Part shown: piece after piece, positions 164 to 34,846 of the stretch
How the letters are laid out: every line of letters starts with the position of its first letter
How positions within the stretch are numbered: the first letter of the stretch is position 1
Source: Alcanivoracaceae bacterium
GTDB taxonomy: Bacteria > Pseudomonadota > Gammaproteobacteria > Xanthomonadales > Marinicellaceae
Assembly: GCA_016763695.1 (NCBI GenBank)
Contig: JAESTH010000064.1
Span: forward strand, 1-34,846
Length of the DNA stretch: 34,846 nucleotides
Direction: 5' to 3'
Program-made: the position numbers and the translations under genes
Notes under the pieces: generated by a model
Databases searched by the model: none
Told to the model about the DNA's origin: nothing
Seen by the model: the letters and a program-made list of their open reading frames with translations, nothing else

Positions 164-204
164 ATAACAAGTATGAGAGAAATAGTCAAAATAATTGCAC
201 AACT
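68..204 (+). repeat. NRPS gene-junction repeat, copy A
   Basis: This stretch spans the end of one synthetase gene and the first codons of the next. It aligns without gaps to 10720-10856 with about 13 differences in 137 bases. The 49 bases at 110-158 are identical to 10762-10810. The repeat ends abruptly after CAACT in both copies. Confidence 0.9.
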
Positions 205-3200
205 TGCAGATGCTGGGATTGAAGTTTACCTTTTCGAAGAAAAACTGAAAGCCAGGGCTTTGAAAGGTGTATTTGCTGCAGAATTTGTAAATTTAATTAA
301 GAATAATAAGCCAGGTATTATTGAATACTTAAGCCAGCAGGCAGAACGGCAACAATTCAGTGAAAGACCTAAAATAGTTAGGATTGAAAGAAAAAACAAA
401 CAACTCATTCCATCCTATGCTCAACAACGTTTATGGTTTATAGATAATATGGATGGCAGCAGTGCTCATTATAACATGCCTTCAGCCATGCGTTTGCAAG
501 GCGACTTTAATGTAGATGTCGCTGGCGCTGCTTTTACCCAGATTATAGAACGCCACGAAACCCTGCGTACAACTTTTGTTAATAATGAAGATAGCCTTTC
601 ACAAATCGTCCATGAACAGTTTGAATTTACCATTACTGTCATAGATTTAAGCTCTTTAACCAGCGATGAACAAAAACAGAAAATAAAAATATTAAAACAG
701 CAAGATGCACAATTCTGTTTTGATTTAAAGCACGATTTAATGTTACGTGTCAGTTATCTGAAAATAGCAAATAATCAGGGCATATTATTATTTAATATGC
801 ATCATATTGCCTCAGATGGCTGGTCTATCAGTGTACTTGTAAACGAGTTTATTAAGCTCTACTGTTCAATGCTTGAAGATAAACCAAACCCTTTAGTACC
901 ACTGGAGATTCAATATGCTGATTATGCCCATTGGCAACGTAACTGGCTAAGTGGAGAAGTGTTAGAAAATCAACTCACATACTGGGATAAACAGTTGGTT
1001 GATTTACCACAAGCGCATAATTTACCATTGGATTTTGAACGTCCAGCATTGCGAACTTTCAATGGCGCCCTACATCATTTTGGAGTAAATGATGAAACTT
1101 TAACTCGGCTAAAATCCATAGCCTTAGAGAATAAAGTCACTTTATTCATGCTTATTCATGCGGCCTTTTCTATCCTTTTGTGCCGTTACGCTAACAGTGC
1201 CGATATTGTTATTGGTACGCCAGTAGCCAATCGGCTCCAGAAAGAACTGGAAGGACTTATTGGTTTTTTTGTTAACACCTTGATTCTTCGAACTGACTGT
1301 TCCGATAATCCAAAATTTAATGAATATTTGCAGCAAGTTAAGACCATCAACCTTGATGCTCAAGCCAATCAGGATGTTCCATTTGAACACCTGGTTGATC
1401 GATTAAACCCCAATCGCAGTACCAGTCACAATGCATTGTTTCAGATCATGTTCAGTATGAACACTAATGATAAGTTTGAATTTAAATTACCCAATGTTGA
1501 AATACAATCAGAAAACAGGTCTCAAGTTAATGCGAAATTTGATCTGACTCTCAATGCTGATCCAGAACAAGAGGGTGCTGATACCGGTCTACACTGTTCA
1601 TTTGAATACAACACTGATTTGTTCAAAGCTAAAACCATTAAAAACCTGGCAGACTGCATGCAGCGATTATTAATTGGTATTGCTAGCAGTGATAATCAGG
1701 CTATTGCAGAATTACCATTATTAAGTGATACCGAAACAGATTATTTATTATACCGCTTAAACAATACACAGGCACATTATCCAAGTGAACAGTGCATACA
1801 GCAGTTATTTGAGCAACAGGTAAAGAAAACGCCCCACAATGTGGCAGTGGTCTTTGAAAAACAATCATTGACCTATGCTGAACTCAATAAGCAGGCTAAT
1901 CAATTGGCCCATTATTTAATCGACTGTGATGAAAATAATGACATTGCTCCTGATCATTTTGTTGGATTATGTTTTGAAAGGTCAGCGCAGATGATAGTTG
2001 CTATACTGGCAGTATTGAAAACTGGAGCGGCCTACTTGCCTCTGGATCCAGCTTATCCCAAAAGTCGTCTTCAATATATGATACAGGACAGTGGCTTATC
2101 AACTGTGATTACTCAACAAGTGCTACAGGATGTCAGCAAAAAGCAGGGGATCAGACAACTGTTGCTGGATAGTAATACAGTAAAGAACACACTGCTAACT
2201 TATTCTACAGCTAATCTAATCATTAAGACTTTAAACTCCAATCATCTTGCTTATGTTATTTATACATCAGGTTCTACTGGTCAACCCAAAGGTGTCATGG
2301 TTGAACATCAAAACTCAGTACATTCTGTTTATGCCCGTAAGCACTTTTATAAGCATCCTGTAAAAAGTTTTTTACTTATTTCTCCCATAGCTTTCGACAG
2401 TTCACTGGCGGGGATAACATGGACTTTATTGTTTGGAGGTAAATTGGTTATTCCCAACAGTTCAACCATTACTGATCCAGATGCCTTGATTAGACTTATC
2501 GATCGACGTACTGTTAGCCACACATTAATGACTCCTGCATTGTATTCAACCTTACTCAGCACCATTCAATCCGAAGATATTGTTCAGTTGCACACCGTGA
2601 TTGTTGCTGGTGAATCGTTTACTGAAACACTTTTAAATAACCATCAAAAACTGTTACCAAAAACCAAACTTTTCAATGAGTATGGTCCAACAGAAACTAC
2701 AGTATGGGCAACTGCAGCACAGCTTTATCCAGATAACAACAATCAAGCTATATCAATTGGAAAAGCCATCAACAACACTCGATTGTTTGTATTGAATTCA
2801 GATAAAAAACTTGTGCCCAAAGGATCAACTGGTGAACTTTACATTAGTGGTTCAGGATTGGCACGTGGCTATTTAAATCAAGCCGAATTAACAGCAGAAC
2901 GATTTATTCGTAACCCCTTTAGTCAGGAAGAAAACGATTATATATATCAAACAGGAGATATGGTTCGTTACCTTGAGGATGATAACCTAGAGTTTATTGG
3001 TCGAATTGATGACCAGGTTAAAATTCGTGGTTTCAGAATTGAGCTTGGAGAGATTGAGCAACAAATTTTAAATCATCCCAATGTTGAATCAGCACTGGTC
3101 ATCATCAACCAGAAAAATGCAGACGATAAAAAGTTGGTGGCGTATTTCACATCAGAATCAATAATGGAAGAATCAGAACTTACTCATTCAATCCTTTCAC

Positions 3201-6200
3201 TTTTGCATAAATACCTACCCGATTATATGCTCCCAACTTTTTTCATTCGATTGCCGCATTTTCCCCTGACTGTAAACGGCAAAATAGATCGAGAGGCTTT
3301 ACCAGAACCCAGTACGTTAGACCTCAATGATGATTATGTAGCCCCAACTGGTGAAATAGAAAAACAATTGACTGAGATTTGGTCAACGATTCTTAAAATT
3401 CCTCAGGAAAAAATAAGTACAAATGCCCATTTTTTCAAACTTGGCGGACATTCACTATTATCTATCAAATTAGTAGCAGCAATAAGAAGCCGTTTTAGTT
3501 GTGAATTATCAGTACGTGTGGTTTTTGATGCTCCACAATTATCAGAATTGGCAAAAAGAATTAAAAATTCGCATGCAACAACTCGACCAAAAGTCACAAA
3601 AATACCACGTATCAATCATCTTTTTACACCATCTTATGCTCAACAACGCCTGTGGTTTATAGATCAAATGGATGGTGGTAGTGCCCATTACAACATGCCT
3701 TCAGCCATGCGACTACACGGTGATTTTAAAGTAGAAGTGGCACAAGCTGCCTTTGCTGATATTATCAGACGCCATGAAGTCCTGCGCACGGTTTTCATTA
3801 ATAGTGAACAGGGGCCTTTACAGCTCATTCGTGAACAGTTTGACTTTAATATCAAACAAATAGATTTAAGTCACTTAAGTTCGGATTTACAAGAGCAGGC
3901 CATATACAAGGCTATTAAAGGGGATGCCAATCAGTCATTTAACTTAAGTGACGACCTCATGCTGCGGGTTACCTATCTGTATTTAAGTGTTGACAAAGGC
4001 GTGATGTTATTCAATATGCACCATATCGCTTCAGATGGGTGGTCTATAGGTATTTTAGTGGATGAATTTGCTCAACTCTACCGGTCCAAGCTTGCGGGAA
4101 AACCGAACCCATTAACAGCACTTGCCATCCAATATGCAGATTATGCCCACTGGCAACAGCACTGGCTGGAAGGAGAAGTTTTTGAATCACAGCTAAACTA
4201 TTGGGATAGACAATTAGCTGATCTGCCACAAGTGCATAATTTACCCTTAAAAGATAAACGGCCTGTGACACAAACTTTTCAGGGAGAATCATATCGTTTT
4301 ATACTCGATGTTGACACTTTAGAATCACTTAAACTTATCGCCCTTGATAATCAGATAACCCTGTTCATGCTGCTTCACGCTGCTTTTTCAACGCTGTTAT
4401 CACGTTATGCCAACAGTACCGATATTGTTATAGGCACACCCGTGGCCAATCGTTTACAAAAAGAACTGGAGTCCGTCATTGGCTTCTTTGTTAATACATT
4501 AGTGCTGCGTGCTGATTGTTCCAACAACCCGTATTTTGTTGACTTTTTACAACAAATAAAAAATATCAATCTGGATGCTCAAAGCAATCAGGATGTGCCT
4601 TTTGAACATCTGGTTGATCGACTTAACCCAGCTCGTAGTACCAGTCACAGCGCCCTTTTTCAAATCCTGTTTAATATGGACACCAATGAAGATATAACAC
4701 TGAAATTACCAAACGTGAGTTTAAGCCCAGGCCATACTCAACAAAGAAAACAGATAAATACGAAATTTGAACTCACTCTCAGTGCTGTAGAGTCAACACA
4801 GGGACTGGCATTTAATTTTAAATACAACAGCGACCTGTTTGAAGCATCCTTTATCAAACAGTTGAGTGCTAGTTTACAATTGTTACTGCAAGGAATAGTT
4901 ACAAACCCAAACAGAAGGCTGGCCGAATTTGAGATACTGGATAGCGATCAACAACATTATCTATTACACACATTAAATGATACCCAACTTGATTATCACC
5001 GTGATCAATGTATCCACCAGTTGTTCGAAACACAAGTCAGCAGCAGCCCTGATGAAACTGCACTGGTATTTGAAGAACAGCAACTCAGTTATCAACAGCT
5101 CAATGAACAGGCCAATCAGCTGGCGCATTATTTGATCGATAAAGGAGTCAAACCAGAAACCATAGTTGGCTTGTATGCGCAGCGTTCTGTAAACATGATT
5201 GTTGCAATCTTAGCTATCTTAAAGACAGGTGCAGCTTACCTGCCATTAGATCCCAATCAGCCAGATAATCGCCTTAATTACATGCTTAAGGATAGTCAAA
5301 TAGCCTACTTGTTGTCCAACTTAGCCACTGATCAATTAACAATAAAAGACATACAGGTGATTAGTTTGGGGGATGTGGTCAATAATAAAGGACTGACGTT
5401 TGTACATAATCCCAATATTACAACCAAGACTTCACAACTGGCCTATATTATTTATACTTCAGGTTCTACAGGTCAACCCAAAGGTGTGATGGTTGAGCAT
5501 GGCAATGTTTTGGCATATCATGCGTCTCTGCTGTGCCAGTGGCAGTTGTTAAATGGAGATAATATCTCTGCCTGGTTATGGACAGCATCTTATGCCTTTG
5601 ATGCCTCGGTTAAGGGTTTATTATCCTTATGTGCAGGCCGTGGTCTGGTTATGCCATCAGAATCACAGGCAAAAAGACCTGAGGTCATCGTTGCGTTAAT
5701 ACAAAAACACCAAATAGGCATTTATAACGCCAGCCCACACCTGATGGAATTAACCCTAGAATACCTTGAAATGGGAAGAACTGGCACAGACAAACTCCAC
5801 TTTCCTGATCTGATATTGGGTGGCGAAGATATTCCCCAGGCTATATTGGCTAAGGTATTAAAATACTGTAAAAAACACCAACGTCAGGCGCTCAATGCAT
5901 ATGGCCCAACAGAAACCACTATTAACAGTACTTTCGACCTGATTACAGAAACATTGACTATAGGACGCCCAATAGCCAATACCCAGACCTATGTACTCAA
6001 TCATGATGCTCAATTGCAACCCTTTGGCACAGTAGGCGAACTCTATATTGGAGGAGCTGGTTTAAGTCGAGGATATTTGCACCATCAGGATTTAACCGCA
6101 GAGCGATTTATCAAACACCCTTTTATTAAAAACCCTAAAAACCAGGCCGCACGCTTATACAAAACTGGTGACCTGGTGCGTTATGCTGCTGATGGTCGAC

Positions 6201-9200
6201 TCATATTTATGGGTAGGGCTGATGAGCAGGTTAAAATCAGGGGATTCAGAATTGAATTAGGTGAGATCGAACAGCAACTGTCACTAATCGATTACATCAG
6301 TGCAGCACTGGTCATGTTAACTGGTAATAAAGCCAGTCAACAATTAACCGCTTATATAGTACTGGGTGATGTCAATATAGAAAGTAAGGAATACATAAAT
6401 AAAATAAGGCAGGAGCTGGCAGCACATTTACCTGATTACATGCTGCCATCGGCTTTGATCTTACTTGATTCATTACCATTAACAGCGAATGGTAAGATTG
6501 ATAAAAACAACTTACCATTGCCTGATGAATCACTAAAAAATGAATATATAGCCCCATATGGTGCAACTGAAGAAGGCTTATGTGCAATCTGGTCAGAGTT
6601 ATTAAAAATTCCAATAAATACCATTAGTACTGCTTCTAACTTTTTTGAACTGGGCGGTCATTCCCTATTATCAATACGATTGGTCGCACAGATAAGAAGC
6701 CGTTTCAATAAAGAAATTGCCATACACGATATTTTTGAGTCCTCACAGCTTTCGGTCTTGGCTGAGGTCATTAGTCATAGTCAACTAGTCGCACGACCCA
6801 GAGTGACCGTGTTACAACGACAGGACCATGATTTAATTTGTTCTTTTGCACAACAACGCCTTTGGTTTATTGACCAGATGGAAGAGGGCAGTAGCCATTA
6901 CAATATGCCTGCTGCTGTTCGTCTGCATGGCGATTTTAAAGTAGCAGTGGCACAAAGGGCCTTTGCTCAAATCATTAATCGGCATGAAACATTACGTACA
7001 AACTTTATTGATGGAGATACGGGTCCTTTACAAGTTATTCACCAACAGATTGAGTTTTGTATGACCCAAATAGATTTAAGTCAGCAAACAGGCCAGCAAC
7101 AAGAGCAGGCCATTACCGCAGCCATCGAAGAGGATGCTAAACGACCATTTAACTTACGTAAAGATTTAATGCTACGCGCCAGTTACCTGCATATAAGTGA
7201 TGGTAAAGGGGTTTTATTATTCAATATGCACCATATCGCTTCAGATGGCTGGTCGATGGGGATCTTGATCAATGAGTTCGTTAAACTCTACCAGGCAAAC
7301 CTTGAAGGCAAACCTGAGCCATTAACACCATTTAGCATTCAATATGCTGATTATGCACATTGGCAACGTAACTGGTTAAAGGGACAAGTACTTGAATCAC
7401 AACTAGCATACTGGGACAGGCAATTAACCGATTTACCGCAAGTACATAATTTACCACTGGATTTTGAACGTCCTGCCTACCAAACCTACAACGGTGCCTC
7501 ATATCCTTTTAAAGTTGATGGTAACAACTTGCAGCGACTTGAATCTATAGCACTAGAGAATCAAGTGACTCTGTTTATGCTGCTCCACGCTGCCTTCTCA
7601 ATACTGTTATCGCGTTACTCAAATAATACAGATATAGTTATTGGTACGCCTGTAGCCAACAGGCTACAAAAGGAACTGGAAGGACTCATTGGTTTCTTTG
7701 TTAATACCCTCGTTTTACGCACAGACTGCTCGGGGCATCCGTCTTTTACTGATTTTTTGCAGCAGGTTAAAACCACCAATCTTAACGCCCAAGCTAATCA
7801 GGATGTGCCTTTTGAGCATTTGGTTGATCGACTGAATCCGAGTCGAAATCCCAGTCATAATGCCTTATTTCAGATCATGTTAAGTATGAATACCGGTGAA
7901 TCTTTCGAAATGAGCTTACCTAATGTCAGATTGAGTCCGCAGCCAAGTTCACAAGTAACTGCCAAATTTGATTTGGTCATGAATGCTGTGGCAGTTAATG
8001 AAAACTCTGGCGACAAAGAAAAGGGTTTATATTGTTCTTTTACCTATAATACAGATTTATTTACAGCAGAAACCATTGCGCGACTAGCCAAAAGCATGCA
8101 ACTTTTATTGGCATCTATCGCTGCTGATGCCACTCAATCCATAGCCCAGTTACCACTACTTGGTGATGCAGAGACCCATTATCTATTACACACCTTAAAT
8201 GATACACAGGTGGATTATCCTGATCAAATGTGTGTACATCAATTATTTGCACAACAGGTAGAGAAAAGTCCAGATCATATTGCTGTGGCTTATGAAGAGC
8301 AATCTTTAACTTATTTTGAATTGAATGCCAAAGCCAATCAACTGGCTCATTATCTAATCGAACAGGGTATTAAAGCTGATGACTTTATTGGACTGTGTTT
8401 TGAGCGTTCATTGGATATGATGGTGGCTCTATTGGCTATCCTGAAAGCAGGGGCTGCCTACTTGCCACTCGATCCAAGTTATCCCAAGGATCGACTTGAT
8501 TACATGATGAACGACAGTGCTTTATCATTGGTATTAACTCAACAGCATTTAATAGCTAGCACTAGCGGACAGCAGAGACGACAATTGACTTTGGATGATA
8601 AAGCATTTAATAATGTCTTAAACAATTATCCCAGCAGCAACCCAACTATCGAGGACATGAGCAGTGATGATCTGGCTTATACCATTTATACTTCAGGCTC
8701 AACAGGCAAGCCCAAAGGAGTCATAAATACGCATAGCGCCCTTAATAATCTTTGCCAATGGCACATAAATGAATATGACATAACCACAGAAACAAGAGCT
8801 TCTCATCTTGCCAGTATTGGTTTTGATGCCGCTGTTTGGGAGATCTGGCCTTATTTGCTTAGTGGCGCACAAATTCTGCTGATCTCAGATCAAATCAGAC
8901 TGTCTCCGCATAAACTTTTGCAATATTTCAAACAGTCTAAAATCACCCATTGTTTCTTGCCAACAGCACTTTTAGAAGCTTCATTTGATTTATTAGATAC
9001 CCCTGAAAAAACCAGCTTGGAATTTATTCTAACTGGTGGAGAAAAACTGACCAGGCACAATTTCACCAATAGCAGCACTCACTTGGTGAATCATTATGGC
9101 CCTACAGAATCAACTGTAGTTACCACTTCTTGTAAAGTTATGACAAATGAAAATATTGCACCACCTATTGGAAAACCTATTGCAAATATCAGGACATATG

Positions 9201-9667
9201 TCCTGACAAATGAACGGAGCTTGACTCCAAATAAAGTGATTGGAGAATTGTATATAGCTGGAGCTGGATTAGCACGGGGTTATTTAAACCAGCCAGAATT
9301 AACTGCAGAAAATTTTATTCAGCATACTTTTAGTGATAACAGTACTGAGCGTTTGTATCGAACAGGAGATTTGGTTCGTTATCTGCAAGACGGCAATTTA
9401 GAGTTTATGGGTAGAATTGATCATCAAGTTAAAATTCGTGGTTTTAGAATTGAACTGGGTGAAATAGAGTACCACCTATCTGAATTGGAACAAGTGAGGT
9501 CATGCGCAGTCCTGGTTGAGGATAATCATAATGAAGAAAAGTATTTATCTGCTTACATCACCTTAAATGATAAACACATAGCTGACAGTCATATCATCAA
9601 AACCATTAAGATAGCCCTAAAAAGCACCATGCCAGCATATATGATACCCAGTTTCATTACTGTTTGA
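173..9667 (+). CDS. Three-module nonribosomal peptide synthetase (TubC dock-C-A-T-C-A-T-C-A, frameshifted before T-TE)
   Basis: A multimodular cytosolic NRPS that activates amino acids as adenylates, loads them on phosphopantetheine arms and condenses them. Residues 1-55 resemble a TubC-type N-terminal docking domain. Condensation domains start at about 80, 1155 and 2224, with HHIASDG at 210, 1283 and 2353. Adenylation domains show YTSGSTG(Q/K)PKG at 697, 1761 and 2839, YGPTE near 837, 1910 and 2975, and QVKIRGFRIELGEIE after 943, 2014 and 3080. A10 NGKID is at 1035 and 2106. Carrier LGGHS serines are 1094 and 2164. I see no epimerization, methylation or cyclization domain. The third A domain stops right after its A9 motif (MPAYMIP); A10, carrier and thioesterase continue in the next frame from 9664. 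Restoring one base would give about 3,547 residues. ATG lies 9 nt after the upstream stop with no strong Shine-Dalgarno, suggesting coupled translation. Product and substrates are unknown. Confidence 0.95.
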   Translation: MREIVKIIAQLADAGIEVYLFEEKLKARALKGVFAAEFVNLIKNNKPGIIEYLSQQAERQQFSERPKIVRIERKNKQLIPSYAQQRLWFIDNMDGSSAHYNMPSAMRLQGDFNVDVAGAAFTQIIERHETLRTTFVNNEDSLSQIVHEQFEFTITVIDLSSLTSDEQKQKIKILKQQDAQFCFDLKHDLMLRVSYLKIANNQGILLFNMHHIASDGWSISVLVNEFIKLYCSMLEDKPNPLVPLEIQYADYAHWQRNWLSGEVLENQLTYWDKQLVDLPQAHNLPLDFERPALRTFNGALHHFGVNDETLTRLKSIALENKVTLFMLIHAAFSILLCRYANSADIVIGTPVANRLQKELEGLIGFFVNTLILRTDCSDNPKFNEYLQQVKTINLDAQANQDVPFEHLVDRLNPNRSTSHNALFQIMFSMNTNDKFEFKLPNVEIQSENRSQVNAKFDLTLNADPEQEGADTGLHCSFEYNTDLFKAKTIKNLADCMQRLLIGIASSDNQAIAELPLLSDTETDYLLYRLNNTQAHYPSEQCIQQLFEQQVKKTPHNVAVVFEKQSLTYAELNKQANQLAHYLIDCDENNDIAPDHFVGLCFERSAQMIVAILAVLKTGAAYLPLDPAYPKSRLQYMIQDSGLSTVITQQVLQDVSKKQGIRQLLLDSNTVKNTLLTYSTANLIIKTLNSNHLAYVIYTSGSTGQPKGVMVEHQNSVHSVYARKHFYKHPVKSFLLISPIAFDSSLAGITWTLLFGGKLVIPNSSTITDPDALIRLIDRRTVSHTLMTPALYSTLLSTIQSEDIVQLHTVIVAGESFTETLLNNHQKLLPKTKLFNEYGPTETTVWATAAQLYPDNNNQAISIGKAINNTRLFVLNSDKKLVPKGSTGELYISGSGLARGYLNQAELTAERFIRNPFSQEENDYIYQTGDMVRYLEDDNLEFIGRIDDQVKIRGFRIELGEIEQQILNHPNVESALVIINQKNADDKKLVAYFTSESIMEESELTHSILSLLHKYLPDYMLPTFFIRLPHFPLTVNGKIDREALPEPSTLDLNDDYVAPTGEIEKQLTEIWSTILKIPQEKISTNAHFFKLGGHSLLSIKLVAAIRSRFSCELSVRVVFDAPQLSELAKRIKNSHATTRPKVTKIPRINHLFTPSYAQQRLWFIDQMDGGSAHYNMPSAMRLHGDFKVEVAQAAFADIIRRHEVLRTVFINSEQGPLQLIREQFDFNIKQIDLSHLSSDLQEQAIYKAIKGDANQSFNLSDDLMLRVTYLYLSVDKGVMLFNMHHIASDGWSIGILVDEFAQLYRSKLAGKPNPLTALAIQYADYAHWQQHWLEGEVFESQLNYWDRQLADLPQVHNLPLKDKRPVTQTFQGESYRFILDVDTLESLKLIALDNQITLFMLLHAAFSTLLSRYANSTDIVIGTPVANRLQKELESVIGFFVNTLVLRADCSNNPYFVDFLQQIKNINLDAQSNQDVPFEHLVDRLNPARSTSHSALFQILFNMDTNEDITLKLPNVSLSPGHTQQRKQINTKFELTLSAVESTQGLAFNFKYNSDLFEASFIKQLSASLQLLLQGIVTNPNRRLAEFEILDSDQQHYLLHTLNDTQLDYHRDQCIHQLFETQVSSSPDETALVFEEQQLSYQQLNEQANQLAHYLIDKGVKPETIVGLYAQRSVNMIVAILAILKTGAAYLPLDPNQPDNRLNYMLKDSQIAYLLSNLATDQLTIKDIQVISLGDVVNNKGLTFVHNPNITTKTSQLAYIIYTSGSTGQPKGVMVEHGNVLAYHASLLCQWQLLNGDNISAWLWTASYAFDASVKGLLSLCAGRGLVMPSESQAKRPEVIVALIQKHQIGIYNASPHLMELTLEYLEMGRTGTDKLHFPDLILGGEDIPQAILAKVLKYCKKHQRQALNAYGPTETTINSTFDLITETLTIGRPIANTQTYVLNHDAQLQPFGTVGELYIGGAGLSRGYLHHQDLTAERFIKHPFIKNPKNQAARLYKTGDLVRYAADGRLIFMGRADEQVKIRGFRIELGEIEQQLSLIDYISAALVMLTGNKASQQLTAYIVLGDVNIESKEYINKIRQELAAHLPDYMLPSALILLDSLPLTANGKIDKNNLPLPDESLKNEYIAPYGATEEGLCAIWSELLKIPINTISTASNFFELGGHSLLSIRLVAQIRSRFNKEIAIHDIFESSQLSVLAEVISHSQLVARPRVTVLQRQDHDLICSFAQQRLWFIDQMEEGSSHYNMPAAVRLHGDFKVAVAQRAFAQIINRHETLRTNFIDGDTGPLQVIHQQIEFCMTQIDLSQQTGQQQEQAITAAIEEDAKRPFNLRKDLMLRASYLHISDGKGVLLFNMHHIASDGWSMGILINEFVKLYQANLEGKPEPLTPFSIQYADYAHWQRNWLKGQVLESQLAYWDRQLTDLPQVHNLPLDFERPAYQTYNGASYPFKVDGNNLQRLESIALENQVTLFMLLHAAFSILLSRYSNNTDIVIGTPVANRLQKELEGLIGFFVNTLVLRTDCSGHPSFTDFLQQVKTTNLNAQANQDVPFEHLVDRLNPSRNPSHNALFQIMLSMNTGESFEMSLPNVRLSPQPSSQVTAKFDLVMNAVAVNENSGDKEKGLYCSFTYNTDLFTAETIARLAKSMQLLLASIAADATQSIAQLPLLGDAETHYLLHTLNDTQVDYPDQMCVHQLFAQQVEKSPDHIAVAYEEQSLTYFELNAKANQLAHYLIEQGIKADDFIGLCFERSLDMMVALLAILKAGAAYLPLDPSYPKDRLDYMMNDSALSLVLTQQHLIASTSGQQRRQLTLDDKAFNNVLNNYPSSNPTIEDMSSDDLAYTIYTSGSTGKPKGVINTHSALNNLCQWHINEYDITTETRASHLASIGFDAAVWEIWPYLLSGAQILLISDQIRLSPHKLLQYFKQSKITHCFLPTALLEASFDLLDTPEKTSLEFILTGGEKLTRHNFTNSSTHLVNHYGPTESTVVTTSCKVMTNENIAPPIGKPIANIRTYVLTNERSLTPNKVIGELYIAGAGLARGYLNQPELTAENFIQHTFSDNSTERLYRTGDLVRYLQDGNLEFMGRIDHQVKIRGFRIELGEIEYHLSELEQVRSCAVLVEDNHNEEKYLSAYITLNDKHIADSHIIKTIKIALKSTMPAYMIPSFITV

Positions 9668-10815
9668 AACAACTACCAGTCACCCAAAACGGTAAGATAG
9701 ATTCGGCAGCTTTATCAAAAATGGCTAAACCTTTGCAACAACAGGAGTATGTTGCTGCAACAAATAAAAGTGAGCACATCATGCTAGAAGTGCTGTCGAG
9801 CGAACTGCATTTAGATATAAAAACCATCAGTATGAGCGCCAACTTTTTTGATATTGGAGGTCACTCTTTATCATTGTTAAATATAGTTCAAAAACTAAAT
9901 GATAATGGTGTACAAAGCAGCATTAAACAATTCTATGAATATGAAACGTTAAAAGAAATATGCAGTGCCAGTAGCGGTGCTGAAAACTATTCGGAAAATG
10001 ATTCTTTACTGAAGTTAAATACATCAACCAAAGGAACACCATTGTACTTGGTACATCCAATGGGAGGTAGGGCTGACTGCTATAAACAATTAGCCAAACA
10101 TTTAGAGAACATTGCTCCAGTATTTGGCATACAGGCTCCCTTCGTAGCCAATCGCGATTTTTCATTTACCAGTCTTTTTGAATTGGCAGAATATTATGCC
10201 CATGCCATCTTAATGAAGCAACCTGAAGGACCCTATAGACTAGGTGGTTGGTCTGTTGGCGGATTACTTGCACAAAAAATTGTTCATGTTTTAAACCAAG
10301 CTGGAAAAGAGGTCGAATATTTTGTTGGTTTAGACAGCTTTATGATCATGCCTTATCAACAGCAGAGCAGTGACTTTGAGGCATTAAAAAAGGTTGTTGC
10401 AACAGTCAGAAAAGAAAAAGATATTGGTGAAAGTTTTTTCCCAAGAGGTATAGAAAATAAGAGTCTGAAACAACAAATAGATATCACAATCAAACTATTA
10501 AAATTAGATGATAGTGAAACGAGTAAACAACAACTTATCCAAAGTTTTACATTTGGAATAAATTTTTTTAAAGCCAAAATTTCATTATCTCCGCAAAATA
10601 TCAGTAAAAAATCGATCTTATTCATAGCTAAAAACAATACTAACAAACAGCTAATCAAGGATGGGTGGAAAAAAGCCATTTGTTCGGCTATTAATGATTA
10701 TAAATATGTAGAAGCAAGACATCTTCATATATTGGAAGGTGAAAGTTTTATACAAATAGCCGATAAAATATTATCTGATTTAAATAATATTGATCTTATA
10801 AATAAAAGAGCTTAA
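9664..10815 (+). CDS. NRPS C-terminal part: A10 motif, carrier protein and type I thioesterase
   Basis: This frame holds the missing end of the synthetase before it. It opens with LKQLPVTQNGKID, the A10 motif of the third adenylation domain. Next comes a carrier domain with FFDIGGHSL (attachment serine 68), then a thioesterase with GGWSVGG (nucleophile Ser197), Asp in VGLDSF (224) and His in ARHLHI (353). The thioesterase should release the peptide by hydrolysis or cyclization. The spacing from YMIP in the first frame to NGKID in this one equals that in module 2 if one T is added to the GTTTG run at 9662-9666. So this is one gene with a single-base deletion or a sequencing error. The TTG at 9664 could start a free-standing protein but has no visible ribosome site, and half an A-domain lid is not a sensible N-terminus. 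Confidence 0.9.
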   Translation: MKQLPVTQNGKIDSAALSKMAKPLQQQEYVAATNKSEHIMLEVLSSELHLDIKTISMSANFFDIGGHSLSLLNIVQKLNDNGVQSSIKQFYEYETLKEICSASSGAENYSENDSLLKLNTSTKGTPLYLVHPMGGRADCYKQLAKHLENIAPVFGIQAPFVANRDFSFTSLFELAEYYAHAILMKQPEGPYRLGGWSVGGLLAQKIVHVLNQAGKEVEYFVGLDSFMIMPYQQQSSDFEALKKVVATVRKEKDIGESFFPRGIENKSLKQQIDITIKLLKLDDSETSKQQLIQSFTFGINFFKAKISLSPQNISKKSILFIAKNNTNKQLIKDGWKKAICSAINDYKYVEARHLHILEGESFIQIADKILSDLNNIDLINKRA

Positions 10816-12632: not shown

Positions 12633-13094
12633 ATGGTTTTTTTTGGCATTGATATTTCTAAATTAACATTTGATGTAACCGTTTTGATTGAAGACAAATC
12701 GCAACATAAAAAGTTTGATAATAATTTACAAGGGTTTTCACATTTTCATAAATGGATTAAATCGCTAAAATCTGAAAGCTATATTTGCATGGAAGCAACA
12801 GGAATTTATAGCATGCATTTAGCTTTGTATTTAGTAAAGAGAAAATACAAAACGATTGTGTCGAATCCTTACAAAATAAAGAATTATGCGCGAATGAAAA
12901 TGAACCGTAACAAAACAGATAAAGCAGATTCCTTGTGTGTTGCTCAATATTGTAAAAATCTTTACCGAGAAAACGAAATAGATAATCAAATCTATGTTCC
13001 TAAAAGTAAATATTTTCAAAGGCTACAAGCTCTAGTTACTCGCTTGGAACAAGTAAAATTACTTAGAGTACAATTAGGTGAATTCATAATTTAA
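12633..13094 (+). pseudogene. IS110-family transposase, N-terminal half (DEDD domain)
   Basis: Residues 1-153 carry the RuvC-like DEDD domain: Asp7 in GIDISK, Glu54 in CMEATG, and Asp96 and Asp99 in NKTDKADS. GAGG lies 5 nt before the ATG. The frame ends after LRVQLGEFII, where family members continue through a helical linker. Bases about 13070-13130 look scrambled and the linker is lost, so this half alone should be inactive. Confidence 0.85.
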
Positions 13095-13114
13095 ATTGGC
13101 ATGTTTATGATTTC

Positions 13115-13659
13115 ACCCTGTTAACCATTTAGAATCAACGCTAGATAAAGTTTCTATAAAATTTATAAGACAGACAATCAAGCAATTAGAAAAACAAATA
13201 ACCGATGTGAAAAATTCAATTGTGGAATGTGTTAATCAAGACTTAATGTTGAAAAAACAAGTAAAACTTTTGATTACAATTGATGGAATTGGAGAAGCAA
13301 CAGCTTGGTCTATACTGGCCTATTTGGGTGATATTTCATTATTTTCAACATCAGGACAAGTGACTAGTTTTGCTGGGATCAATCCTTGTATAGAAGACTC
13401 AGGAACAAGTTTAAAAACATCAAGATTGTCGAAAATGGGGCATAAACGTTTACGCAAATCATTATATATGCCTGCAATAACGGCTAAGAAACATAATCCA
13501 GTTCTCATTGAGTTTTATGATAAATTATTGAATAAAGGCAAACCAAAGAAAGTAGCCATTTGTGCGGTGATGAGAAAGTTGTTGGTGATTGCTTATGGAG
13601 TTTTGAAGTCAGAAATGGCATTTGATCCATTATATAAAAAACCTCAGACCTTAGACTAG
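13115..13659 (+). pseudogene. IS110-family transposase, C-terminal half (Transposase_20 domain)
   Basis: The open stretch resumes with NHLESTLDKV after a stop and reads to LD at 13659. It contains IDGIGEATAWSILAYLGD and FAGINPCIEDSGTSLKTSRL, then SKMGHKRLRKSLYMPA. These are the helix-hairpin-helix and the serine-containing domain of IS110 transposases. A start exists at GTG 13207, but the domain is normally fused to the DEDD half. With the frame break the transposase is probably dead unless frameshifting restores it. Confidence 0.85.
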
Positions 13660-24178: not shown

Positions 24179-24463
24179 ATGCCATCACAACATGCGAAAA
24201 ACATAGCTTTAACAGAAAAATGGTATCATTGGGTTGACGAACTGGTGGCAAGTGGTGAGTATAAAAGTGTCAGTGAAGTGATGCGTGATGGTCTTCGTGC
24301 ATTAGAGTTGCGACGTGAGCATCATGAGCTTGAGCTCTCAGAAATACGTACCCGTATTTCTATATCTCTAGAACAGGCAGATTCTGAAAAATTTGCTAAA
24401 GGTTCAGGTGAAGATGCAATTAATAGAGCATTCAAACAGGCGCTACAATCAAACAATCAGTGA
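24179..24463 (+). CDS. parD: ParD-like antitoxin (type II toxin-antitoxin)
   Basis: A 94-residue protein of the ParD/CopG ribbon-helix-helix type. The N-terminal part (ALTEKWYHWVDELVASGEYK, then SVSEVMRDGLRALELR) is the dimeric DNA-binding fold. The charged C-terminal tail binds and neutralizes the toxin encoded next. Its TGA overlaps the toxin's GTG start. It should also repress its own promoter at 24117-24149. Assignment rests on the family pattern and the partner. Confidence 0.85.
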   Translation: MPSQHAKNIALTEKWYHWVDELVASGEYKSVSEVMRDGLRALELRREHHELELSEIRTRISISLEQADSEKFAKGSGEDAINRAFKQALQSNNQ

Positions 24464-24792
24464 AAACCTGGCGCTTAACCCAACAAGCAGAGAGTAGTTT
24501 ACAAGAGATCGCCCTGTGGACACTTGAGAATTTTGGTGAGTTTAAAGCCATTGAGTATCGTGATAATTTAATATCTTATATTGACAGGCTCGCCAATGGT
24601 GAGTCACCTCATGCAAAATCTTGTTCACAACTGATACAAGATGTATATACAACTGCGGAGCTGTTTTATTATCGTGAAGGACGACATTTTTTTATATTTC
24701 GAGAAAATGAGGATTGTATTGATATATTGGAGTTTATCCATGAGCGTTGTAATATACCTTATCATTTAAAAAAAATAGCAATGAAAAATTAA
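24460..24792 (+). CDS. parE: ParE/RelE-superfamily toxin
   Basis: A 110-residue protein with the ParE pattern: KTWRLTQQAESSLQEIALWT, then RDNLISYIDRLANGESPHAK, then ELFYYREGRHFFIFRENEDCI, ending in a DILEFIHE strand. ParE toxins poison DNA gyrase, while some relatives cut mRNA; the sequence alone cannot decide. The start is GTG, overlapping the ParD stop (GTGA). The stop lies 4 nt before the recR ATG, so recR may be expressed from the toxin-antitoxin message. Confidence 0.85.
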   Translation: MKTWRLTQQAESSLQEIALWTLENFGEFKAIEYRDNLISYIDRLANGESPHAKSCSQLIQDVYTTAELFYYREGRHFFIFRENEDCIDILEFIHERCNIPYHLKKIAMKN

Positions 24793-31989: not shown

Positions 31990-32406
31990 TTAGACGATTT
32001 CAAAATCATGAGTTATGTTAACAGTTTTATCCAGCATAGCAGATACCGAACAATATTTTTCAGCAGACAATTTAACCGCTCTGGCAATTGATTTTTCATC
32101 AATGTTTTCACCAGAAACAATAAAGTGTAAATGTATATCCGTAAAAATACGCGGGAATTCATCACGCCTTTTCGCAGTGGCCTGAACCTCAAGTTTGCTG
32201 ATCTCTTTCTTTGATTTGCCAAGAATTAATTTTACATCAATGCCTGCACAACCAGTTAGGCCAAATAGTACCATTTCCATTGGAGATGGTGCACATTGTT
32301 CATCATCTTTAACAATAGGTGCATCCATGAGTACACTTTTATGACTGTCTGTTTTACCGACAAAGGTATAATCCTGTAGCCAATGGGCAGTGACTGTTTG
32401 ACTCAT
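31990..32406 (-). CDS. OsmC-family peroxidase-like protein
   Basis: A 138-residue OsmC/Ohr fold protein. The two redox cysteines are Cys53 (GLTGCAGIDV) and Cys119 (EKYCSVSAML), and the C-terminus NITHDFEIV is typical. It most resembles the YhfA-type OsmC group, whose role in hydroperoxide defence is plausible but untested. I chose ATG 32406 because GGAG lies before it and the domain begins there; the longer frame would overlap the divergent gene. With gpx and GST it makes a local cluster of thiol-stress genes on different strands. Confidence 0.88.
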   Translation of the reverse strand: MSQTVTAHWLQDYTFVGKTDSHKSVLMDAPIVKDDEQCAPSPMEMVLFGLTGCAGIDVKLILGKSKKEISKLEVQATAKRRDEFPRIFTDIHLHFIVSGENIDEKSIARAVKLSAEKYCSVSAMLDKTVNITHDFEIV

Positions 32407-32478
32407 ATTATTCTCCAAAAAATATTTATTAATGGCATAATAGACCCTGTTTCTCATTTCACAAGTTTTTTTATCAAA

Positions 32479-33906
32479 TTGATTAATATTAGAAAATATT
32501 TTTACTCTTTTACTGTTGTTTTTGTCTTATTGACTTTTGCCTGGTTTGTTGCTCTGGAACTGACCAAGCAACGTATACAGCTTGAAGCTGAGAACAAAAT
32601 TAATAACTTTAAAAGTCAACAGACACCCTTTATTTGGAATTTTGAATCATTTACTGGTGATGTTGTTGAGCCTTATCAAAAGTATTGGCAACAGTTAGAT
32701 TCGTCACATTATATTAAAGCAAATAAAGGTCAGAACCCACAGTTGTCGCTTAATTTTTCCAGTGAGGTTATCAATACCTCACATCATTCAATATTACAGA
32801 TTGATTCTACAAATCTACTACAGGGAACAGTGAAAATTCAATTTAAAACTGAGCTTGATGATGATTACTTTTATTACTCATCAGACATTAAGTTAGCGGG
32901 TAAACAGCAGGTTATAGATTTGCAACAAAGCTGGCAGGGTATATCTGATAAAAATTCACACACGGTTAAAGCCCCATGGGGAACATCTGCACAAAAAGTC
33001 AGTAGTCTGGTTTTGTATTTTAATAATCCGGATACAGATTTAGTCATTGAATCAATTAGTATGCCTTATGCTTTTGAATATAGAAATATAGAGATACATG
33101 AAATTAATTGTTTGGGTGAAATACAGACGGAATATTCTCCAAGTTTATTACAGGTAAATATTTTTGTGTTACAAGCAGCCTGTTGGTTACCATCCACTTA
33201 TATGTGGCTAAAGCAGCAGGTTCAACAAAATTACCCTGAGTCCATTTTGTCCATTGCCCAGGTGGGTTTGTGGCCGCAGACCTATGTGCATAAAGTTAAT
33301 AAATCTTATACAAATATTTTGCTTATTAATACCGCCCTTTATGTTTTTATAGTTTTGGTTATATTGGCAGTAACGGTTTTAACGGGTCAATATTCAACTA
33401 AAGTAGATAAGTCAGAAGGTGATCAAAGATGGACAATTAAGCGTTTATTGCTTATTGGTGGAAAAAAAGCCATAAGTCCTTATCATGTATTGCTGAACTA
33501 TGCATTTGTGCTGACACCAAGTTTTATTATTTTTACATATCTGGCCTTTTTAAAATTTCCTGATTCAACAACCTTTAAACTTTTGCCAATGTATTTTGTT
33601 TGGGCTTTATTTCAACAGTTTATATTGGCTTATGTTTTAGCAGAAAAAATATTTTTTAGTCACCTGCATAATCGTCTATTATCCAGTGTGCTGGCAGCAT
33701 TGGTATTTGCTATTATTCATATGCCATCTGTTACTTTAATGTTGGCGACATTTGTTGCGGGTAGTTTTTGGGCTTATTCATGGTTGTTGTTTAAACGCTT
33801 TATACCTTTAGCCATCTCTCATGCGGTGCTGGCACTGATGTTTTACTATGTTGTTTCTGATGGTTTTTTATATTCTGCCAAGGTTTTACATTGGTTCTGG
33901 ACGTAA
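32479..33906 (+). CDS. Membrane protein with degenerate CPBP (CAAX protease-like) domain
   Basis: About 475 residues. One membrane segment lies near the N-terminus (SFTVVFVLLTFAWFVALEL). A ~230-residue periplasmic beta-rich region follows (FIWNFESFTGDVVEPYQKYW). A membrane segment near LYVFIVLVILAVTVL leads to a C-terminal multi-helix domain like CPBP/Abi proteases. There the glutamate pair of motif 1 is replaced (WALFQQFILAYVL), while the later histidines remain in FAIIHMP and ISHAVL. So it may be a non-catalytic relative. No ATG start is clear; TTG 32479 is my choice, as an earlier start would overlap osmC. Confidence 0.6.
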   Translation: MINIRKYFYSFTVVFVLLTFAWFVALELTKQRIQLEAENKINNFKSQQTPFIWNFESFTGDVVEPYQKYWQQLDSSHYIKANKGQNPQLSLNFSSEVINTSHHSILQIDSTNLLQGTVKIQFKTELDDDYFYYSSDIKLAGKQQVIDLQQSWQGISDKNSHTVKAPWGTSAQKVSSLVLYFNNPDTDLVIESISMPYAFEYRNIEIHEINCLGEIQTEYSPSLLQVNIFVLQAACWLPSTYMWLKQQVQQNYPESILSIAQVGLWPQTYVHKVNKSYTNILLINTALYVFIVLVILAVTVLTGQYSTKVDKSEGDQRWTIKRLLLIGGKKAISPYHVLLNYAFVLTPSFIIFTYLAFLKFPDSTTFKLLPMYFVWALFQQFILAYVLAEKIFFSHLHNRLLSSVLAALVFAIIHMPSVTLMLATFVAGSFWAYSWLLFKRFIPLAISHAVLALMFYYVVSDGFLYSAKVLHWFWT

Positions 33907-33957: not shown

Positions 33958-34000
33958 TGTGCAGAATTGCACATGGCAATCTACAAAAAGCATCTATAAT
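33958..34000 (+). promoter_or_regulatory. Activator-type promoter of small RNA 1
   Basis: TATAAT is at 33995-34000, with no good -35 box. TGTGCA-GAAT-TGCACA (33958-33973) is a perfect dyad centred at 33965.5, about -41.5 from a start near 34007. The 53 bases from TTGTGCA to the RNA start align without gaps with the same region at copy 2. This is the layout of a class II activator promoter. The spacing of the half-sites (TGTGC-N6-GCACA) resembles CRP/FNR-family sites. Confidence 0.6.
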
Positions 34001-34006
34001 AGAAGC

Positions 34007-34131
34007 TCGTGGGTAAATGCTACGACTTAGGTCTGGTCAAAGCCTTAACTGTAGCAATTTTAGTGGGATTGCACGACTCCACGGTTGTGCGTTAAGCCAG
34101 TGATACCTCCCGGTGTTACTGGCTTTTTTTT
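34007..34131 (+). ncRNA. Putative small RNA, sibling 1
   Basis: An unannotated ~125-nt transcript is predicted from its promoter and terminator. TGCTAC (34018-34023) pairs with GTAGCA (34051-34056). GCACGAC (34071-34077) pairs with GTTGTGC (34084-34090) over a 6-nt loop. The terminator hairpin follows. The body is about 95% identical to sibling 2 at 34472. I do not recognise an RNA family. A 28-codon frame from ATG 34017 to TGA 34103 exists in both copies, so a small peptide cannot be excluded. Confidence 0.65.
34094..34131 (+). terminator. Intrinsic terminator of small RNA 1
   Basis: AAGCCAGTGATACC pairs over 14 positions (two G-U) with GGTGTTACTGGCTT around a TCCC loop, followed by a run of T. 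In sibling 2 two stem bases differ, and pairing is kept in each case by G-U or A-U exchange. Confidence 0.9.
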
Positions 34132-34422
34132 ATTCCATCTTTCCTTTTTTCCTTTTATTATTATATCTTCCATGTGATCTTATTCTTAGACCTTGTTGTA
34201 TAAGACAGGATTGTATAAAAAATATTTCAATAAATTATATATTTTTTTTATTTTTTCAATTTTTCAACCAAACATCGGTTTTGCCATTTTATTCACACAA
34301 GCTAAGTCTTTAATTCTCATGTGTTTTATTTTTGCAAGTACATAATATCAATGGATTAATAACGAACCTTCTTGTTTACGCAAATATAAAATTAAATATT
34401 TTGTGTTTAGATTAGTTATGCT
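34132..34422. other. AT-rich spacer between the two small RNAs
   Basis: About 290 bases of very AT-rich sequence. I see no gene, no repeat of the flanking units and no hairpin worth naming. The similarity between the two RNA units ends sharply at both borders. Confidence 0.6.
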
Positions 34423-34465
34423 TGTGCAAAAATGGACAAGTATTTTTGTAAAATATGCTTATAAT
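34423..34465 (+). promoter_or_regulatory. Activator-type promoter of small RNA 2
   Basis: TATAAT is at 34460-34465. TGTGCA-AAAA-TGGACA (34423-34438), one mismatch from a perfect dyad, is centred at 34430.5, again about -41.5 from a start near 34472. The sequence between dyad and -10 differs from copy 1, so the dyad and -10 are selectively kept. Confidence 0.6.
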
Positions 34466-34471
34466 TAAAGC

Positions 34472-34596
34472 TCGTGGGTAAATGCTACGACTTAGGTCTG
34501 GTCAAAGCCTTGACTGTAGCAATTTTAGTGGGATTGCACGACTCCACGGTTGTGCACAAAGCCAGTGATGCCTCCCGGTATTACTGGCTTTTTTGT
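34472..34596 (+). ncRNA. Putative small RNA, sibling 2
   Basis: Near-copy of sibling 1: about six differences over some 122 bases. The TGCTAC/GTAGCA and GCACGAC/GTTGTGC stems are unchanged. Changes fall at CCTTGACT (CCTTAACT in copy 1), just before the terminator (GTGCACA for GTGCGTT) and in the terminator stem. The terminator (34558-34594) has a TCCC loop and a T-run. The C-rich loop could base-pair with Shine-Dalgarno sequences, as in other C-rich-loop small RNAs; that is inference. Confidence 0.65.
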
Positions 34597-34795
34597 ATCC
34601 GCACACTTTTTTCATTTTCTCAGTATTTTTTTCTAACTGTATGCCAGGCCTGTACGACAAGTAGACAGAATAAAATAAATAATATTTCATATAATCTATA
34701 CCTTTTGGTAACTACTCACTCCTCTAGACATTAATGGCGAAGGCACTAATCTCATCAATATTACTGATTATTATCATAACATCTATTCATTTTTA

Positions 34796-34822
34796 GTAGA
34801 GTCCTGTTTTCGCAGGAATGAC
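34796..34822 (-). repeat. REP-like element (GTCATTCC type), further copy
   Basis: On the minus strand this reads GTCATTCCTGCG and ends CTCTAC, matching 30124-30150 with about six differences in 27 bases. TCCTG/CAGGA forms the stem. The rest of 34597-34846 holds nothing I can identify. Confidence 0.65.
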
Positions 34823-34846
34823 GAGGTGAGTTGCATCTTTTGTTCT

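Follow-up and report, generated by a model that had tools for sequence, protein, structure and literature searches.

Tandem copies of a structured small RNA family with a shared promoter dyad and a DUF6502-like protein as candidate activator

Near the right end of the window, by which we mean the whole 34,846-nucleotide stretch that was analysed (contig JAESTH010000064.1), two units of nearly the same sequence follow one another. Are they genuine RNA genes, and if so, what switches them on and how might the RNAs act? Repeat analysis returned a direct repeat of 139 nt at 94% identity (33995-34133 and 34460-34598), and between the two repeats no similarity was detected beyond short chance repeats, which agrees with the initial annotation of two near-identical units around an unrelated spacer. 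The unit length given there, about 125 nt, was corrected to about 127 nt. The predicted RNAs lie on the forward strand at 34006-34132 (copy 1; covariance model match of 138.5 bits, with compensatory pairs) and 34471-34597 (copy 2; 135.4 bits). Copy 1 consists, in order, of a 5′ single strand (CUCGUGGGUAAAUG), hairpin 1, a linker (AUUUUAGUGGGAUUGC), hairpin 2 and an intrinsic terminator. The terminators, both strong and with a UCCC loop, were placed by folding and repeat analysis at 34094-34132 and 34558-34597 on the same strand. The -10 box TATAAT is found at 33995-34000 for copy 1 and at 34460-34465 for copy 2, again on the forward strand, and inspection of the sequence showed no TTGACA-like -35 in either promoter. 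Upstream of each box stands an operator-type dyad, TGTGCAGAATTGCACA at 33958-33973 and TGTGCAAAAATGGACA, with one departure from the motif, at 34423-34438. Both dyads are centred 29 bp 5′ of the first T of TATAAT, at about -41.5 if the start site is inferred from the -10 box. The upstream neighbour, outside the RNA genes, encodes an Rce1-like (CAAX-protease type) membrane protein (32383-33906, forward strand), and in four further genomes of the genus a related gene stands beside the orthologous sRNA locus. Elsewhere the window carries a large multi-module non-ribosomal peptide synthetase (173-10815), an IS110-like transposase split over two frames (12633-13659), a ParD/RelE-type toxin-antitoxin pair between the dnaX-ybaB and recR genes (24179-24792) and, near the contig end, a segment resembling a dispersed intergenic repeat (TAGTAGAGTCCTGTTTTCGCAGGAATGACGAGG, 34795-34832).

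Taken by itself, the window makes a weak case, because its dyads and RNA bodies match shuffles: the dyads, with 6 of 8 and 5 of 8 symmetric positions, do not exceed the shuffled controls, and the folding z-score of -3.9 for each full unit comes largely from the terminator, the bodies without it scoring -0.5 and -1.3, no better than shuffles. The relatives thus had to decide. With blastn, copies of the RNA were detected in each of the 11 genus genomes (MAGs of uncultured gammaproteobacteria) and in 0 of 50 other genomes, and the computed copy number is 1-6 per genome of the genus. A covariance model matched the same 11 genomes, a wider model recovered single copies in 15 of 18 sister-genus genomes, and none of a further 171 genomes of the order gave a covariance-model match. 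An alignment of twenty copies shows four helices, in which 97.7% of cells pair. Among the 27 consensus base pairs, 18 have changed on both sides in a compensatory manner, a number reached by none of 500 shuffles, with slid controls far below. Several of the copies are near-identical RNA genes that stand alone, each equipped with a promoter and an intrinsic terminator. The Rfam 15 covariance-model scan gave no match at gathering (the best sub-threshold hit was Esr41, 17.6 versus 102 bits, E 1.2), consistent with the earlier suggestion of duplicated RNAs of an unrecognised family. A protein-coding origin was also looked for. In several copies a frame starting with GTG GGT AAA TGC stays open, but indels break it in 7 of 20, and 3 further copies have a stop ahead of the linker. 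The small-ORF reading was rejected because the frame is lost in half of the copies. As judged by this comparative evidence, the window units are real copies of an undescribed, duplicated small RNA family with a predicted common structure.

In the genome of the window (G000), the family comprises the window pair and a second pair on contig C232; C155 and C207 carry divergent copies, and C140 opens with a truncated one. This contig starts inside the sRNA copy (C140:1-58, L005), whose terminator CCUCACGG is followed by a SorC-type regulator gene; the orthologous single RNA of G002 (L043) likewise precedes a SorC-type gene. Given this terminator type and the gene order shared with G002, a third tandem copy probably follows the window pair beyond the window end, lost at the contig break. 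Two other copies in G000 are of unusual build: in L118 (C207, ~7150-7400) a single transcript-like unit contains hairpin 1 twice, head to tail, and L117 (C155:22716-22840) precedes a regulator paralogue in the same orientation and lacks the dyad. In the sister genus, the RNA copies keep the 5′ end GUGGGUAA and the hairpin loop GGUCAAAG, and a glycine-zipper gene adjoins four of the copies examined; a gene of the same kind flanks several copies in the genus of the window. The sister-genus copies examined have no such dyad at the RNA promoter, indicating that the RNA predates the dyad. Nine of these single copies were recorded as L102-L104 and L213-L218; a CTTCTCATTT box 5′ of a TTGCTTACAAT-type -10 is common to five of them, and from that box they seem to be under different promoter control.

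The dyad was then followed through the genus. At 18 of 21 copies it is centred 29-30 bp 5′ of TATAAT with no -35 box, as the initial annotation had described for the window pair, and TATAAT is found at nearly all copies. L009 and L014 have no dyad at the usual place, and L022 carries a different dyad. The search for body and dyad in related genomes, proposed earlier, found the dyad in 10 of the 11 genomes. The significance of the dyad rests on this constant place and on the genome-wide rarity of the motif. The 11 genomes (~35 Mb) contain 18 sites of TGTGYA-N4-TRCACA, 1-3 per genome: 13 are at RNA promoters, 3 stand just upstream of genes for one protein family, hereafter the regulator family, and 2 are in coding sequence. 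In G000, TGTGYANNNNTRCACA occurs three times in 3.9 Mb, each time at a copy of this RNA. The letters of the dyad vary as whole half-sites (TGTGCA, TGTGTA, TGTACA). Sites of the GTACA-N4-TGTACA type are found at RNA copies, between divergent regulator pairs and before peptide genes, together with a few other background sites.

Nine RNA copies have as neighbour a divergently oriented gene of ~260 codons for a member of the regulator family; the dyad stands in between, its centre 18-49 bp from the ATG. The family has no Pfam, NCBIfam or PHROGs assignment. Its profile aligned with DUF6502 (PF20112) over 238 columns (hhalign 98.6%, E 6e-16), yet no member scanned with hmmscan passes the PF20112 cut-off; the tail of the family search also reaches DUF6502 genes. 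By profile comparison, it is a family of divergent DUF6502-type predicted HTH proteins. No paper found in the literature search names DUF6502, a family with no assigned function. The AlphaFold model of the regulator is poor (pLDDT 68.5) and contains two HTH-like segments, so the assignment of the recognition helix, which would start with a TG-I-(D/N)-RR motif, is tentative. The D/N position of this motif was compared with the dyad. Eight Asp regulators have a readable dyad, and in each case both half-sites carry C at position 5; all five Asn regulators have T there in at least one half (naive p ~0.0008, with some pairs near-copies and few independent events). The residue switched at least two times on the tree, in two separate clades. 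Sites in trans fit the regulators of the same genome as well, C5 going with Asp in G000 and G002 and a mixed site with Asn in G001 and G005. The window itself has no regulator gene. Its dyads are of the C5 type, and the regulators encoded on C232 and C220 are of the Asp type. The C232 regulator adjoins two further RNA copies that bear the dyad of the window, its own leader having lost the dyad and holding a degenerate RNA copy; the C220 regulator has a similar dyad in its own leader.

From the promoter anatomy and the computed association of dyad and regulator, we infer activation and propose the following reading, with a probability of about 0.68. The window units would be tandem, paralogous, lineage-specific trans-acting sRNAs, each transcribed from its own TATAAT promoter without a -35 and each dependent on an activator bound at the dyad near -41.5. 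The activator would be a DUF6502-like HTH regulator from elsewhere in the genome, for which the C232 and C220 genes are the best candidates, and the Asp at the start of its recognition helix would read the C of TGTGC. Bound at the dyad, it would recruit RNA polymerase and turn on several RNA copies at once, the window pair in trans. The RNAs would act by base pairing.

A quite unlikely alternative is that the dyads serve to repress or autoregulate the DUF6502-like regulators, with the RNAs constitutive or by-products and the -41.5 position incidental. The place of the dyad, 18-49 bp before the regulator ATG, is one where binding could repress. However, the spacing from dyad to -10 is fixed in 18 of 21 copies even where no regulator adjoins, as in the window, and the RNA promoters lack a -35 box; both points speak against this reading.

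It is also possible to take the dyad for a quorum-sensing lux/tra box read by an acyl-homoserine-lactone LuxR protein, which would make the RNAs ordinary LuxI/LuxR targets. The tra box of Agrobacterium is ATGTGCAGATCTGCACAT. The likeness of TGTGCAGAATTGCACA to it, the position of lux-type boxes near -42 and the one autoinducer-binding LuxR gene in G000 (C204) speak for this, but the domain is present in only 1 of 11 genus genomes, against 11 of 11 for the RNA and 10 of 11 for the dyad, and the letters of the dyad follow another protein family. LuxI was found in 0 of the 11, though the LuxI control search was silent as well. We regard a LuxR regulator as very improbable.

Class II activation by a CRP/FNR-family protein, the type of regulator first suggested for this locus, is likewise very improbable. 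A dyad at ~-41.5 with TGTG half-sites would suit it, and a Foldseek search with the model of the DUF6502-like regulator, which returned nothing significant, had weak matches to CRP/FNR-type proteins. The half-sites, on the other hand, are TGTGC, TGTGT or TGTAC, with C or T and not A at position 5, and the dyad reads TGTGC-N6-GCACA instead of the CRP site TGTGA-N6-TCACA or the FNR site TTGAT-N4-ATCAA. Moreover, the dyad hardly occurs outside this RNA and a single regulator family, which is not the pattern of a global CRP regulon. Because the dyad follows the DUF6502-like family in both position and sequence, the window RNAs are most likely driven in trans by a regulator of that family and not by CRP/FNR. 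Finally, the multiple dispersed copies, some of them degenerate (the third copy on C232, C207 and G002:C18), would suit repeats left behind by a mobile or protein-coding element, but compensatory changes in each helix, a reading frame that was not kept, RNA bodies without a match in the phages and plasmids searched and a glycine-zipper neighbour common to two genera make this reading the most improbable of all.

Returning to the proposed activated sRNAs, we compared the parts of the RNA that could pair with targets. The 5′ end GUGGGUAA is nearly invariant in both genera and the linker is invariant, while the terminator loop differs among copies (UCCC, GCCC, UCAC or AGAACAGG). The UCCC loop, which had been put forward as the target-pairing part, is thus an unlikely seed and was rejected as an anti-Shine-Dalgarno element. 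We infer that the RNAs probably base-pair via the 5′ end, and perhaps also via the linker. Complements of the 5′ end (TTTACCCACG) were inspected at 31 non-sRNA sites, none of which lies at a conserved translation start region. Pairing of the sRNA with a peptide leader was no better than shuffles and was rejected. A pseudoknot between CGUGG at the 5′ end and CCACG in the loop of hairpin 2 could form, and it is uninformative because its pairs do not vary.

Most regulator loci with enough contig have an adjacent gene whose small protein product starts like a signal peptide and has a tandem repeat between two Cys (L045, L048, L050, L051, L056, L057, L059, L060, L068 and L069 in g1; L143-L145 in g4; and L138). 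The repeats are near-identical, 7-10 residues long and differ in sequence between loci, with units such as VVGDGSNVS, KIGGDGTEN, KVGNDGSDS, IDSDGSGVT and AVGTGGSGIS, and STGDEIIGI, KVEQAGTDS and KVTEDAIGN in genus g4. A unit GTGGSPSEVI stands beside a true DUF6502 gene. It is plausible that the repeat protein is a signal precursor. The wider scheme would be a Gram-negative peptide signalling system in which the DUF6502-like regulator senses this signal directly or indirectly and switches on paralogous sRNAs both in cis and in trans, the window pair in trans. Several such circuits would run side by side in one cell, insulated from one another by different repeat sequences and different dyad letters; as a whole, this scheme is speculative and we consider it unlikely.

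For the DUF6502-type proteins, which occur across the order, the locus would provide a first candidate DNA site, a first candidate output and possibly a one-residue/one-base specificity switch, Asp going with C and Asn with T. It also brings in a new family of multicopy sRNAs, recruited copy by copy to different operator classes, and it links sRNA and regulator to recurrent, unexplained secreted repeat microproteins in at least two genera.

Among known systems, OmrA/OmrB and Qrr are sibling sRNAs, tandem or multicopy and near-identical, with divergent flanks and intrinsic terminators. The RNAs described here resemble them in all of these features, and OmrA/OmrB also in the conserved 5′ end, but differ in sequence and structure (no Rfam match) and in the type of activator. 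In Vibrio, the vqmA and vqmR genes are neighbours. Two reports describe VqmA as a transcription factor that activates the sRNA gene vqmR via a promoter site (PMC8284805, PMC13251380). The window system is similar in that a regulator is proposed to activate an sRNA through a promoter site. VqmA, however, is a receptor whose ligand is the small molecule DPO, whereas the regulator here is DUF6502-like; and unlike VqmR, the RNA here is multicopy and unrelated, and the neighbour of its candidate regulator encodes a predicted secreted repeat peptide.
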